NCBI GenBank assembly: GCA_005772955.1
Contig: SXID01000063.1
Location: 1 to 64,000 of the forward strand
DNA length: 64,000 nt
Source: Planctomycetia bacterium
Lineage (GTDB): Bacteria > Planctomycetota > Planctomycetia > Gemmatales > Gemmataceae
Direction: 5' to 3'
The translations under genes were made by a program, and so were the position numbers. Position 1 is the stretch's first letter. Every line of letters begins with the position of its first letter. The notes under the pieces are model-generated. The model was not told where the DNA came from. It did not search any database and saw only the letters and a program-made list of their open reading frames with translations. Positions 8,343-59,509 of this stretch are shown here, piece by piece.

Positions 8343-8348
8343 GTGGAA

Positions 8349-8454
8349 AGAACCTCTCCCCCCAACCCCCTCCCCTAAGAAGGGAGGGGGAGAAAGTCCG
8401 GCTCCCCCCAACCCCCTCCCCTAAGAAGGGAGGGGGTTGGGGGGAGAGGTTCTT
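8349..8454. repeat. CCCCTAAGAAGGGAGGGG palindromic repeat, double unit
   Basis: Two units with the core CCCTCCCCTAAGAAGGGAGG sit in tandem, flanked by outer arms AGAACCTCTCCCCCC (from 8349) and GGGGGGAGAGGTTCT (to about 8453), forming a long hairpin. Other copies are at 52056-52182 (intergenic) and 58067-58187 (inside a gene). It lies between the hydrolase and the prolyl isomerase genes. Confidence 0.85.
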
Positions 8455-8550
8455 CTCTTTCCCACATTTTCGCTCAAGTTCCCTTGCGGCAGCGGCGCGC
8501 GGTGTTATAAGCCGCGTCGATCACGCCGACTTAAACAAAGGGAACCCAGA

Positions 8551-35205: not shown

Positions 35206-35265
35206 GTTTCGCGAACGCCCCGCCGGGGCGTGGGAATAAACGCCCCGGCGGGGCGTTCGCGAAAC
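35206..35265. repeat. Perfect 26-bp inverted repeat with GCCCCGCCGGGGC core
   Basis: Arms 35206-35231 (GTTTCGCGAACGCCCCGCCG then GGGCGT) and 35240-35265 match at all 26 positions around an 8-base loop. Nested palindromes lie in each arm. Related to 27509-27587. Confidence 0.9.
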
Positions 35266-35282: not shown

Positions 35283-36851
35283 TCACTTCCGCTTCTTCCG
35301 CGCGCCTTTCACCATCTGCCACAGCCCGGCGAGCCGCGCGCGGAAGCCGCGCGCGTGTGTCAATCGAATCAGCCCATCGAGAAGTTCGCCGGTTGCAGGG
35401 TCGGGGTTTACTGCGTCGTCGAGGTGCCGGCGGGTCGTTCCGTTGTGAACCGTCACCACCTGCGGCGACGTCATCGCGAGCAGTCCCTCTGGGCCTTGCG
35501 TCACGCCCCACCCGCTCGCGCCGCGCCCGCCGAACGGCGTTCCCGGATGCGCCGTCGCCGCGAGTAAGTCGTTGATGATTACGCTTCCTGATGGCACGCG
35601 CGCGGCGAACGCTTCCGCCGCAGCGATGTCCGCGCTGAAGATCGACGCGGACAGGCCGAATGGCGATTGCTTCGCGAGCGCGAGCGCGTCTTCGACCGTG
35701 TCGAACGGGATCACGGCGGCAACGGGTGCGAAACATGCCTCGCGACAGATCGCGGCATTGGCGGGGGTGTTGAGCAGAAGCGTGGGGCGAAGCGCGAACG
35801 TCTTGTCTTTGCCCTCTCCCCTTGCGGGAGAGGGTGTCGGCGCTTCGCCGACGGGTGAGGGGGATGCTCCACACGCCGCTGAGGTCTCACCCCTTACCCG
35901 GCTCGAAGACTCGCCACCCTCTCCCGCACGGGGAGAGGGCAAGAGAACAGCCCCTCGGTTCACCGCGTCCGCGATCAACCGCTCCGCGTGCGCGACCTGA
36001 GAAGCCATCACCAAGCCCAGCGGTTCGGCGTGTTCCAACAGCGGCTTCAGCGCGGTGAGGAGCGCATCGACCTTTGCACGCTGCACGAAGATGCGCCGCA
36101 CCGCGATGCACGTCTGTCCGCGGTTGATCGTCAAGCCGAACCATATTCCCTTCGCGGCCATTTCGATGTTCGCGTCCGCGAAGACGAACATCACGTCGCA
36201 GCCGGAGAGTTCGAGAGTCGAAGGGATAAGCCGCTCGCCGAGCCGGGCCGCGAGCTTCCGCCCGACCACGTCCGACCCAGTGAAAACGATGTAATCGACA
36301 TCGGCTTCGGCCAACTGTGGCCCGCCCTCACGTGTCGCGGGAAGCGTCTGGAACAGGTCAGTGGGGAACCCCGCGTCGCGAAAGAGCGTGCGAAGCACCT
36401 CCGCGGTCCGCGGCGTGTTCTCGCTCGGCTTCCACAGAACCGCGTTGCCCGCGACAATCGCCGGTACGATCTGCCCGAGGTTCAGGTACACCGGGTAGTT
36501 CCACGTGCCGATGACGCCGACCACGCCCCACGGCCGGTAATGCACTGCGTCGCGACAACCCGCGAGCCACACTGGGCGGTCCCACCGCGACACGTGCCGG
36601 GGTGCGAGAATACCCGCCGCGCGCTTCTCCAGAAACTTGAGTGCCGCGGTGGCGGGAAGCACTTCGCTCCCGGCGATTTCGAGTGCGGGCCTGCCAACGT
36701 CCGCGTGGATCGCGGAGCCGATGTCGGCCATGCGTTCGACGAGCAGCGATCGCAGGTTGCGAACGTGCCGGAGTCGGTCGCGCACGGTTCGCTTCGCCCA
36801 TTTTCCTTGCGCGACCCGCGCGGCGGTGACTTCCGTTGTGAATGGTGTCAT
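35283..36851 (-). CDS. Aldehyde dehydrogenase with in-frame repeat insertion
   Basis: 522 residues from ATG 36851; the longer frame upstream is simple heptad repeat. Aldehyde dehydrogenase landmarks: GVVGVIGTWNYPVYLNLGQI, AVLWKPSENTP (Lys141), YIVFTGSDVVGRKLA, the general base Glu214 in STLELSGCD and the nucleophile Cys248 in NRGQTCIAV, then AIC-EACFAPVAAVIPFDTV and PFGGRGASGWG. Residues about 304-347 (starting LPSPRAGEGG) do not belong to the fold; they are encoded by a 132-bp repeat with 25-bp terminal inverted repeats, lying between the Rossmann-like core and the PTLL segment. All catalytic residues remain. Likely oxidises an unidentified aldehyde with NAD(P); the enzyme could still work if the 44-residue loop is on the surface. 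Confidence 0.87.
   Translation of the reverse strand: MTPFTTEVTAARVAQGKWAKRTVRDRLRHVRNLRSLLVERMADIGSAIHADVGRPALEIAGSEVLPATAALKFLEKRAAGILAPRHVSRWDRPVWLAGCRDAVHYRPWGVVGVIGTWNYPVYLNLGQIVPAIVAGNAVLWKPSENTPRTAEVLRTLFRDAGFPTDLFQTLPATREGGPQLAEADVDYIVFTGSDVVGRKLAARLGERLIPSTLELSGCDVMFVFADANIEMAAKGIWFGLTINRGQTCIAVRRIFVQRAKVDALLTALKPLLEHAEPLGLVMASQVAHAERLIADAVNRGAVLLPSPRAGEGGESSSRVRGETSAACGASPSPVGEAPTPSPARGEGKDKTFALRPTLLLNTPANAAICREACFAPVAAVIPFDTVEDALALAKQSPFGLSASIFSADIAAAEAFAARVPSGSVIINDLLAATAHPGTPFGGRGASGWGVTQGPEGLLAMTSPQVVTVHNGTTRRHLDDAVNPDPATGELLDGLIRLTHARGFRARLAGLWQMVKGARKKRK
35810..35941. repeat. 132-bp palindromic element inside the aldehyde dehydrogenase gene
   Basis: Terminal arms 35810-35834 (TGCCCTCTCCCCTTGCGGGA then GAGGG) and 35917-35941 pair at 24 of 25 positions. 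Inside is a further small hairpin (GTCGGCG-CTT-CGCCGAC). The length is exactly 44 codons and no stop occurs in the coding frame. Confidence 0.9.
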
Positions 36852-36867
36852 GCAGTCAGGATAGTAA

Positions 36868-37017
36868 CGAGTTGCGAGTTGCGAGTTGCGAGATGCGAGT
36901 GCCGAGTTGCGAGATGCGAGTGACGAGTTGCGAGTGAAGGCAAAGTACCAGAGGCAACAAGGCTCTTGGTATTCTGCCTTTTCTCGCAACTCGCAACTCG
37001 CAACTCGTCACTCGCGA
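36868..37017. repeat. GAGTTGC heptad array forming a long hairpin
   Basis: About nine heptads of the type GAGTTGC, GAGATGC or GAGTGAC (36868-36937) face an opposing array of CAACTCG heptads (36983-37017). Between them GGCAAAGTACCAGAGG and CTCTTGGTATTCTGCC continue the pairing imperfectly around 36950-36962. It fills the gap between the aldehyde dehydrogenase start and the stop codon of the next minus-strand gene. Confidence 0.8.
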
Positions 37018-41660: not shown

Positions 41661-41751
41661 AACCCGTAACGCACTACGCCCAGGGGGACAGTTACCGCGA
41701 GGCTTTGGGCCTCGCGGTAACTGTCCCCCTGGGCGTAGTGCGTTACGGGTT
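41661..41751. repeat. Perfect 43-bp inverted repeat between convergent genes
   Basis: Arms 41661-41703 (AACCCGTAACGCACTACGCC onward) and 41709-41751 match at all 43 positions with a 5-base loop. The second arm overlaps the stop codon of the minus-strand cytochrome gene by two bases. It may end both transcripts. The perfect match suggests a recent or actively maintained element. Confidence 0.93.
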
Positions 41752-49902: not shown

Positions 49903-49986
49903 GGCGAGCGGGGGGCGTAAGCCCCCTGATGCGACCTCCTCCAACGACGAGCGACAAGAATCAGGGGGCTTATGCCCCCGCTCGCC
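49903..49986. repeat. Inverted repeat made of two 28-bp dispersed units
   Basis: Arms 49903-49930 (GGCGAGCGGGGGGCGTAAGC then CCCCTGAT) and 49960-49986 pair with two differences (one base and one indel). The first arm is identical in reverse to 6404-6431. It separates the decaheme cytochrome and NuoEF genes and ends 18 bases before the NuoEF start. Confidence 0.9.
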
Positions 49987-52041: not shown

Positions 52042-52055
52042 ATGGGTGGGTGAGC

Positions 52056-52182
52056 AGAACCTCTCCCCCCAACCCCCTCCCCTAAGAAGGGAGGGGGAGA
52101 AGGACAACAAACAATCGAGCTACGAACTGCCCCTCTTGCTCCCCCTCCCTTCTTAGGGGAGGGGGTTTGGGGGAGAGGTTCT
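52056..52182. repeat. CCCCTAAGAAGGGAGGGG palindromic repeat between NuoEF and the NuoG-like gene
   Basis: Arms 52056-52099 and 52139-52182 (AGAACCTCTCCCCCC... against ...GGGGGAGAGGTTCT) match at 43 of 44 positions around a 39-base spacer. Same family as 8349-8454 and 58067-58187. It starts 15 bases after the NuoEF stop and could attenuate transcription or protect the upstream mRNA end. Confidence 0.92.
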
Positions 52183-52204
52183 TTGCCGCAGAGAGTCCGC
52201 ACCC

Positions 52205-57207: not shown

Positions 57208-59205
57208 TCACCCGTCGTTCCACTTCACGAAGGCTTCGAGCGCGTAGTATTCGGGTAAGCCCAGTGAGTCGTAGGTGCGGGCGGTGGCGAGGTTTCGCTG
57301 TTCGGCGCGCTGCCAAAACTCACGCCGGTCCGTGCCGCCGGGGAACATCGCGCGGTCCTTCTGGCTCTGATGCCGGAAGATCGCCTGCTTCTTCCGCTCG
57401 AGCACCTCCGGGGACAGTGGCACGGCCATTTCGATTTCGTGCGGCTCCCACTCTTCCCACGCGCCCTTGTACAGCCACACGTCGGGGTTGAAGCCCGTCG
57501 CACGCATCTGCCGTGCGGCCGCGAAGACCGCTTCGGCGCAGACGCGGTGCGTCCCGTGTGGGTCGCTCAGTTCCCCCGCGACGTACACCTGATGCGGGTT
57601 CAGGCGCTTCAGTAACTCGACGATGTCGTCGATGTCTTTCGGGTGGATCGGGTCTTTGGTTTTGGTGCCGGTGTGGTAGAACCGCAGGTTCATGAACTCC
57701 AGTTGGTCGGGCGGAATGCCGCACGCGAGCGCGCCGGCGCGGGCCTCGGTCGTGCGGATCACCGCCTTCACCTTGAGTACGTCGGCGCTGTCGCGCTCGT
57801 CGGCCTGCTTCGCGTCGAGGAACGCGTTCACCCGCTCCTTCATCGTGCCGGCGCTCGACTGCTCGGCCGGGCTGCCGAACGCCTGGAGGAACTCGTCCAC
57901 GAAGTCCACGAACCGGCGCGCGTCGTGGTCGAACACCGCGACGTTCCCGCTGGTCATGTACGCGATGTGAACCTTGTGCCCTTGTTCCACGAGCCGGATG
58001 ATTGTGCCGCCCATCGAGATGACGTCGTCGTCCGGGTGGGGGGAGAAGACAAGTATGGTTTTGGGCAACCCCTCCCCAACCCCTCCCCTAAGAAGGGAGG
58101 GGCTTGAAGCAAAAGACGCTGTAGCGTCTTCTGCTTTCTGCTCTGCTCCCCCTCCCTTCTTAGGGGAGGGGGTAGGGGGGAGAGGTTCTTCGGCGCGCCC
58201 GGCCGGGTACGGCTTGATCGTCCCCATGCGGTCGTGGAACACCGCTTCGCCGATCTGCTCGGCCGGGCCTTTCTCGCGGAGCAGTTCGTAGAGGTGGTGG
58301 TCACGGAAATCGTCATCGTTGAGCTTCTGAAGGCCCTTCTTCACGGTCAACGAAAGCGTGACGACCGCCTTGCGGACGAGGTCCGGCGTCCACGCGCACG
58401 GCCCGACCTCCCACGGCCGCTTGATCGCGGTCAGCTCCGCCGCGGCGGCCTCGTCCAGCACGAACGTCGCGTCCTTGTGGTCTTGCAGGAAGCTCGCGGA
58501 GATCGCCTCCGTGGGCGCCTGCTCCACCGCCTTGTAGACGATGCCGGCTTTGTGTTCACCGAACGCCATCAGGAAGATGCGACGCGCTTCGAGGATGCTG
58601 GCCACTCCCATCGTGAGCGCATGGTGCGGCACGTTCTTTTCGCCAAAGAAGCCGTCTGCCGCGTCCCGACGCGTGATGCTGTCAAGCGTGACGAGACGCA
58701 TACGGCTGTTCTGCGGGCTGCCCGGCTCGTTGAACGCGATGTGCCCGGTGCGCCCGATGCCGAGAATCTGAATGTCGATCCCACCGAGGGCCGCGATCTT
58801 CTTCTCGTATTCGGCGCACGCGGCGTTTACTTCGTCTGGGCGGAGCGCGCCGTCCGGGATGTGGATGTTTTCCCACTTGATGTTGACGTGACTGATGAGC
58901 GTTTCGTGCATCCACCGGAAGTACGAGTGCTGACTCTCCTTCGCCATCGGAAAGTATTCGTCGAGGTTGAACGTGACGACGCGCGAAAGATCCAAGTCCT
59001 CGTCCTTGTGGAGCCTGATGAGTTCGCGGTACAACCCCACGGGCGTGCTCCCGGTGGCGAGCCCGAGTACGGTGTGTTTGCCGGCGGCGTTGCGCGCGCG
59101 AACGAGTTTGTCAATCTCCTTCGCGACGTACTTGGCCGCGACCGCGGCGGTCGGGAACTTGACGGTGCGTGTTCGCGTGTGCGGCAGTGGGTTCGGAGAG
59201 GTCAT
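57208..59205 (-). CDS. nagB: NagB/PIG-L fusion: glucosamine-6-phosphate deaminase-like plus deacetylase-like protein
   Basis: 665 residues, ATG start. Residues 1-330 are NagB: VLGLATGSTPVGLYRELI, VVTFNLDEYFPM, ILGIGRTGHIAFNEPGS and the C-terminal HRALTMGVASILEA-like region. Residues 380-665 are PIG-L/LmbE: ILVFSPHPDDDVISMGGTII (metal-binding HPDD), YMTSGNVAVFDHDARRFV and GELSDPHGTHRVCAEAVF. Bacteroidetes NagB proteins of about 660 residues have the same order, so the fusion itself is not new. The linker (about 340-380, PLPPTPSPKKGGG) is encoded by a palindromic repeat. Together they suggest conversion of N-acetylglucosamine-6-phosphate-type substrates to fructose-6-phosphate; whether the second domain is a true deacetylase is unproven. 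Cytoplasmic. Confidence 0.92.
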   Translation of the reverse strand: MTSPNPLPHTRTRTVKFPTAAVAAKYVAKEIDKLVRARNAAGKHTVLGLATGSTPVGLYRELIRLHKDEDLDLSRVVTFNLDEYFPMAKESQHSYFRWMHETLISHVNIKWENIHIPDGALRPDEVNAACAEYEKKIAALGGIDIQILGIGRTGHIAFNEPGSPQNSRMRLVTLDSITRRDAADGFFGEKNVPHHALTMGVASILEARRIFLMAFGEHKAGIVYKAVEQAPTEAISASFLQDHKDATFVLDEAAAAELTAIKRPWEVGPCAWTPDLVRKAVVTLSLTVKKGLQKLNDDDFRDHHLYELLREKGPAEQIGEAVFHDRMGTIKPYPAGRAEEPLPPTPSPKKGGGAEQKAEDATASFASSPSLLRGGVGEGLPKTILVFSPHPDDDVISMGGTIIRLVEQGHKVHIAYMTSGNVAVFDHDARRFVDFVDEFLQAFGSPAEQSSAGTMKERVNAFLDAKQADERDSADVLKVKAVIRTTEARAGALACGIPPDQLEFMNLRFYHTGTKTKDPIHPKDIDDIVELLKRLNPHQVYVAGELSDPHGTHRVCAEAVFAAARQMRATGFNPDVWLYKGAWEEWEPHEIEMAVPLSPEVLERKKQAIFRHQSQKDRAMFPGGTDRREFWQRAEQRNLATARTYDSLGLPEYYALEAFVKWNDG
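58067..58187. repeat. CCCCTAAGAAGGGAGGGG palindromic repeat inside the nagB fusion gene
   Basis: Arm 58067-58102 (AACCCCTCCCCAACCCCTCC onward) faces 58148-58187 with a nested hairpin AGACGCT-GT-AGCGTCT (58114-58129) between. Same family as 8349-8454 and 52056-52182. It lies in the linker between the two enzyme domains and keeps the frame. Confidence 0.9.
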
Positions 59206-59509
59206 GCGATGTCCCGGCGAGCGGAGGGCATAAGCCCCTTGTTACCAACGAGTGTCGCGAATGGTGTTTTAGCGGCGCGAGCGTACAGCGGGTATGCCGG
59301 CGTTGCGGATCGGACCCGTTGGTCGACGCGTAGATCAAATGACGCTGGCGGTACACCGCGGAGCGTGGCTCTCGACTGGGTGAAGTGACGACTGTGCCGT
59401 TGTCGCGGTCCATTATCCTCCGCCCGTACGCGAGTTGTTTGTTGGATTTGCTCATTCGCGGTTTAAGATGGGGAATCTGAGCCATTTTTACTGCCGCACG
59501 AGCCGCACC
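59206..59509. other. Divergent intergenic region
   Basis: 304 bases between the nagB fusion start and the propeller protein start. It holds one arm of the 28-bp repeat at 59216-59240. No gene seen. Promoters for both genes should lie here; none was clear enough to mark. Confidence 0.5.
59216..59240 (-). repeat. Copy of the 28-bp dispersed repeat (partial)
   Basis: Begins GGCGAGCGGAGGGCATAAGC and ends CCCTT, matching the arm at 49903-49930 with a few differences. It lies 10 bases from the nagB start codon. Confidence 0.75.

Follow-up and report, generated by a model that had tools for sequence, protein, structure and literature searches.

Different palindromic elements occupy the same protein loops in a Gemmata-like genus of planctomycetes

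The question raised by this locus is what a stretch of 132 bp framed by inverted repeats is doing inside the coding sequence of an aldehyde dehydrogenase (ALDH), and how the gene has come to keep it. The gene lies in the window, by which we mean the whole stretch of 64,000 nucleotides that was analysed, and the host of the window (genome G000, 5.93 Mb in 278 contigs) is a Gemmata-like planctomycete. The segment at 35810-35941 is present as first described, a multiple of three with no stop in frame, and the minus-strand ALDH frame is open throughout. The Pfam Aldedh match (3.7e-91) falls in two stretches of the protein, and Asn118, Glu214 and Cys248, which we take to be the catalytic residues of the enzyme, are invariant over 28 sequences. 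Outside the insert, dN/dS ranges from 0.11 to 0.19 in ten pairs, so that the gene is under purifying selection. An AlphaFold2 model of the protein (mean pLDDT 89.4, pTM 0.86) has a single stretch of at least three residues with pLDDT below 50, residues 311-349, between the strands at 302-304 and 357-360; the insert is thus predicted to form the disordered end of a beta-hairpin, in a protein whose fold is otherwise modelled with confidence. The insert-bearing protein is presumably made and active.

The earlier note had described the 132 bp as bounded by 25-bp inverted arms. Inverted arms are indeed there, 35809-35847 facing 35904-35942 (39 nt, 87% complementary, spacing 56 nt), but the boundaries have to be moved: in 30 copies of the element, which we call F1, the conserved ends extend about 8-10 bp further out, as TTGTCTTTG-CCCTC ... 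GAGGG-CAAAGACAA, and the element is therefore nearer 148 bp than 132 bp (Table 1). Each 23-bp arm is a small hairpin on its own, and both the alignment of copies and the predicted fold give an architecture of two inverted hairpin units around a spacer. Folded as a single strand, the insert (148 nt) reaches -54.2 kcal/mol, against a mean of -28.2 kcal/mol for shuffled sequences (z -8.0), and none of 200 shuffles folds as well. A known structural RNA was considered and ruled out, no Rfam match at the gathering threshold being found in the whole window.

Table 1. Position of the ALDH gene, of the parts of its insert and of the S2 elements in the window
Feature	Position	Strand	Evidence
ALDH gene, 522 aa, insert-bearing	35283..36851	-	Pfam Aldedh 3.7e-91; orthologs in genus
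F1 palindromic element with conserved ends	35802..35949	-	flank conservation in 30 copies; 39 further places; fold z -8
Left hairpin arm CCCTCTCCCCTTGCGGGAGAGGG	35812..35834	.	inverted-arm and 23-mer searches
Right hairpin arm CCCTCTCCCGCACGGGGAGAGGG	35917..35939	.	inverted-arm search
Variable centre of F1 element	35863..35889	.	approximate limits, by eye, from alignment of full-length copies
Second in-frame element, S2	58066..58193	-	between glucosamine-6-phosphate isomerase and PIG-L domains; 677-residue open frame 57211-59241
S2 element, not judged in gene	52051..52187	.	
S2 element, not judged in gene	8345..8463	.	

The window contains further repeats. The S2 elements of Table 1 belong to a superfamily with C-rich/G-rich arms, the sequence of which is unlike F1. 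Another repeat type, consisting of dense GAGTTGCGAGTTGCGAG-type repeats and inverted copies, is found just upstream of the ALDH gene (36863-37015), and immediately downstream of the gene, before its neighbour, lies a perfect inverted repeat of 26 bp (35206-35265). At 41661-41751, 5 bp separate the arms of a perfect inverted repeat of 43 bp, and an F6-like hairpin pair (GGGGGCGTAAGCCCCC) lies at 49911-49979, the F6 family being present also in the helicase gene of genome G015.

Consistent with the proposal that a dispersed palindromic repeat sits inside an otherwise intact ALDH gene, searching the host genome with the window element gave 82 rows on both strands, which we collapsed across strands into the window copy and 39 further places. 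Likewise, the core 23-mer of the arms, with at most 2 mismatches, had 51+45 matches in G000 and its reversed control had 0. A profile scan of 692 kb of G000 DNA, mostly chosen around known F1 places, detected 43 places, the window among them, of which 31 are near full length; both arms are common to the copies and the centre differs. The variable centres were tried as barcodes of descent and found useful for close pairs only, given that F1 copies are too alike and S2 subfamily copies share centres. Among 294 Planctomycetota genomes, 26 (G000 included) have any match to the F1 core, which is frequent in G000 and patchy elsewhere, and the whole element is matched in 21 of 79 nearer genomes at E 0.001; no F1 match was obtained in a plasmid collection at the settings used. 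Eight G000 copies, including that of the window, were judged, from open-frame length, base composition and a reading of the translations, to sit within real genes and to keep the reading frame. In gene-centred samples, 16 of 51 F1 places and 42 of 69 S2 places are in open coding-like frames, leaving out 7 places at the ends of stretches.

ALDH matches are present in every one of the 79 genomes searched (G000 included), and in 13 of the 19 genomes of the genus, counting G000, the ALDH loop holds a palindromic insert. The insert is F1 in G000 and G013, belongs to the S2 superfamily in nine genomes (G001, G005, G007, G009, G010, G012, G015, G016 and G018), and is F5 in G003 and an F5-like repeat in G014, while the loop is short and without insert in the remaining six (G002, G004, G006, G008, G011 and G017). 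These inserts are themselves dispersed: 12 of the 13 recur in the sequence of their own host, with 80 match rows for that of G014, and in sampled host DNA recurrence was seen in 11 of 12 genomes, the miss being G018, of which 13 kb was sampled. A more distant relative, L074, has another, different set in the ALDH loop, with 90 match rows in its own genome. At pairwise dS of 0.41-0.55, G000, G015 and G001 carry F1, F2-type and F4-type inserts, respectively, and the fully supported clade in which the protein tree places G000 consists otherwise of S2 bearers at this site. Because the inserts of other orthologs are dispersed in their own genomes and six of 19 loops are short, the ALDH loop is best read, from these sequence comparisons, as a reused landing site and not as the scar of a single insertion. 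The earlier note had held that orthologs with unrelated inserts at the same place would indicate a native loop; most orthologs do have unrelated inserts, but these are other dispersed palindromic families. Its overall interpretation, an inserted in-frame palindromic repeat, is thus sustained, whereas the filling of the same site by other families had not been foreseen.

Similar reuse was found in other genes, which are mutually unrelated. Among the G000 host genes, Pfam supports a SMUBP-2 type helicase, an SMC protein, a ketoacyl-synthase/FabA protein, a Kdo/WaaP-type kinase and a molybdopterin oxidoreductase; mannosidase-like and BshC-like are names from our own reading, with no Pfam match at 1e-5. 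At least two families occupy the same site in five cases. At the SMC hinge, where the hinge-domain match (531-674) spans the insert at 590-634, F1 is present in G000, G013 and G015 and S2 in G001, G007, G009 and G016. The helicase site has F1 in G000, S2 in G001, G007, G009 and G012, F6 in G015 and, by eye, an F6-type insert in G016. The mannosidase-like site has F1 in G000 and G001 and S2 in G005 and G009, and the site termed P1, found from the side of the relatives, has F1 in G001, G013 and G015 and S2 in G007, G009, G012 and G016. The PfaA-like site has F1 in G000 and S2 in G007. Against the reading as reuse, a recognised element is present there in just 1 of 9 other orthologs, and none was recognised in 8 orthologs at the kinase site or in 9 at the BshC-like site. 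Nearer its C-terminus the PfaA-like protein (L160 6623-6728) has a second element, of S2 type, and S2 is also found there in the orthologs of G001, G007, G009, G010, G012 and G016.

Over the eight G000 sites, 74 ortholog pairs were compared, of which 27 are occupied, 32 empty and 15 longer without a library match. The F6-type insert of the G016 helicase was left out of the 27, and so was anything labelled 'IR?', the inverted-repeat score being unreliable (it misses obvious palindromes). As a control, 700 random in-gene points gave 676 ortholog pairs, 10 of them with at least 60 extra nt, and a library element was found in 1 pair overall. The difference is large (27/74 versus 1/676, Fisher p 1e-28; 16/63 with ALDH left out, p 2e-17), in a count that favours the tested sites, since the library was built from families first seen there, and against random points that were not restricted to loops and control for chance, not for loop tolerance. 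Because the eight sites had been chosen for the presence of F1 in G000, selection bias was checked with 20 evenly spaced 20-kb stretches of G012 (400 kb), which contain nine library places, four of them in open coding-like frames, in three genes. Two of these genes were compared across relatives; the third (L291), with flanks full of element sequence, was left out. In the PSD1-type gene one S2 copy with the same centre is common to G012, G007 and G009, other S2-type elements are present in G001 and G010 and F5-like hairpins in G000 and G015, and G016 and G018 have none. The FolC-like gene has S2 in G012, an S2 arm pair in G001 and half an F6 in G015, and none in G007, G009, G013 and G005. Both genes compared therefore have several families at one site, with families assigned by eye and gene names taken from our reading.

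The way in which the elements are read is also far from random. Of 24 occurrences of the C-arm word CCCTCTCCC, 22 are translated as Pro-Ser-Pro, and of 21 occurrences of the G-arm word GGGAGAGGG, 19 as Gly-Glu-Gly, in a scan that includes a few S2 arms matching the same words. In 31 F1 copies, a few of them truncated where they were read, the numbers open are 17 and 17 for the equivalent frames (frames 0), 23 and 12 for the next (frames 1) and 8 and 14 for the last (frames 2). The equivalent and the next frames are thus open with about the same frequency, and the choice of frame needs more than stop avoidance to explain it. The occupied cases are open in 32 of 35 (the 27 plus the eight of G000). 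The three exceptions all belong to G009, where four of five occupied sites, the PSD1 site included, are not open and one has unknown bases; we presume that these breaks are homopolymer errors of a draft assembly. Elements also occur within or beside one another. In the G009 helicase insert, F3-type arms surround an F2-type element; G007 shares this inner element and has the right outer arm besides, and its near relative G012 has a single F2-type element. The mannosidase-like site of G009 has two elements in tandem.

The direct observations, that is, family membership, the open frame, selection on the gene, a disordered loop (as predicted), occupancy of one site by different families, one nested case and an arm-like remnant, are as a whole probably best explained by dispersed, non-autonomous palindromic elements that repeatedly fill tolerant loops of Gemmata proteins. 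Nesting and tandem placement would also be expected if the elements homed to a DNA target, be it a sequence or a hairpin, instead of being filtered by protein tolerance, and REP dimers inserted into other palindromes are described in PMC3733652. We consider homing unlikely nonetheless, because no common flanking sequence was found outside the ends of F1 itself in 30 copies and the occupied genes are unrelated. A single ancient insertion that every species inherited, and that then diverged or was converted in situ toward the dominant repeat of each genome, is somewhat more doubtful still. Site occupancy is widespread in the genus and close pairs do share a copy (163 of 175 in SMC between G007 and G009, besides the common centre at the PSD1 site), but F1, S2, F5 and F6 have no common sequence by which a whole insert could be converted, the only matches being at the level of the arms, between F1 and F2d. 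Moreover, several species are empty at a site where distant ones are filled, as in the molybdopterin gene, with F1 only in G000 and G013 and an arm-like remnant in G001. That the element is kept for a function, be it as a hairpin in the mRNA, as a brake resembling a terminator or as a flexible linker of some use, could be argued from its very stable hairpin and strong reading-frame preference, yet family and presence shift fast between species as close as those at dS 0.41-0.55 and six of 19 genomes do without an insert, which makes this reading improbable. Finally, that a native loop of low complexity drifted toward a P/G-rich composition, and hence became palindrome-like, is hardly credible: a loop of variable length does exist at the ALDH site in species without elements, but the DNA of the G000 insert, with its strong inverted repeats, recurs at dozens of unrelated places, outside genes too, and we rejected the idea for G000, so that it could stand only for the short-loop genomes.

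If tolerant loops are repeatedly filled, the most likely course of events is as follows. A non-autonomous hairpin element would be copied by some enzyme; G000 has eight Y1-transposase-like (Y1_Tnp) genes, and no F1 or S2 copy was found within about 1.5 kb of them, in loci of 2-3.3 kb. Most landings inside genes would be lost, and those in disordered loops with a hydrophilic frame would persist. The 132 bp are one copy of the dispersed F1 family. This copy would have inserted itself into a beta-hairpin loop that follows the region of the catalytic cysteine in ALDH, and probably survived because its length is a multiple of three, it has no stop and its frame, with Pro-Ser-Pro from C-rich and Gly-Glu-Gly from G-rich arms, suits a hydrophilic disordered loop. 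The ALDH loop would be among a limited number of tolerant places, in which the unrelated F1, S2, F5-like and F6 elements land repeatedly, sometimes inside an older element; with older elements lost or eroding, orthologs would come to have different elements at the same codon region. The elements presumably are or were mobile and selfish, and it is reasonable to suppose that selection for protein tolerance, rather than a target sequence, fixes their sites. Altogether, the data suggest that mobile DNA has repeatedly colonised a limited number of protein loops that tolerate it. More tentatively, Gemmata-like genomes might possess a standing set of about 200 safe-harbour loops, a rough figure obtained from about 60-80 in-gene copies per genome (scaled from G012) divided by an occupancy of 0.36. 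Unrelated families would colonise these loops in turn, with the older element as landing pad, and loop sequences would be replaced faster than species diverge (a different element at dS about 0.4-0.55). The refilled loops show where SMC, helicases, dehydrogenases and other enzymes can take up about 35-80 foreign residues, and a genus in which different families refill them is a natural experiment, the many independent fillings of one site making it testable whether insertions shape proteins or are merely tolerated.

Protein-coding palindromes have mostly been treated as curiosities of Rickettsia and its kin. The likeness to the palindromic elements of Rickettsia drawn in the earlier note is borne out, F1 being a palindromic repeat of about 100-150 bp with many copies, inserted in frame and without stop in coding genes (eight in G000, window included); we liken the two by architecture and the way they work, and claim no membership by sequence kinship. 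The palindromic elements of Rickettsia and Wolbachia (RPE and WPE; PMC10969869, PMC4224334) measure about 150 bp, fall into several families and lie in frame and without stops within unrelated genes. The present elements differ in belonging to another phylum and in that unrelated families fill the same protein site among species. No report of such elements in Gemmata was found in the open-access literature. As in MITEs, F1 is short, has terminal inverted repeats and exists in many copies; no target-site duplication is apparent in 30 F1 copies, although old copies could have lost any. Two inverted hairpin units around a spacer recall REPINs, which are described as mainly extragenic and near RAYT genes (PMC3116915). 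F1 and S2 are not confined to extragenic DNA, many copies being in genes (4 of the 9 places in the evenly spaced G012 DNA are in open coding-like frames), and no RAYT neighbour was found, though such an enzyme might act from a distance. Intragenic REPs of the GTAG/CGTC superfamilies (Di Nocera 2013) are closer: PMC3733652 reports REP dimers within genes of many species and REP families in Planctomycetes, and mentions in one sentence that in two Xanthomonas species recB carries different REPs at roughly the same position. Inspected by eye, the ends of 30 F1 copies have no GTAG or CGTC tag. Because of the recB precedent we do not call same-site reuse wholly new; that case, however, concerns one gene in two species, whereas here several genes of one genus, several families and a random-point control are involved, and that several families refill the same loops throughout a genus is, to judge by our searches of open-access literature, new.
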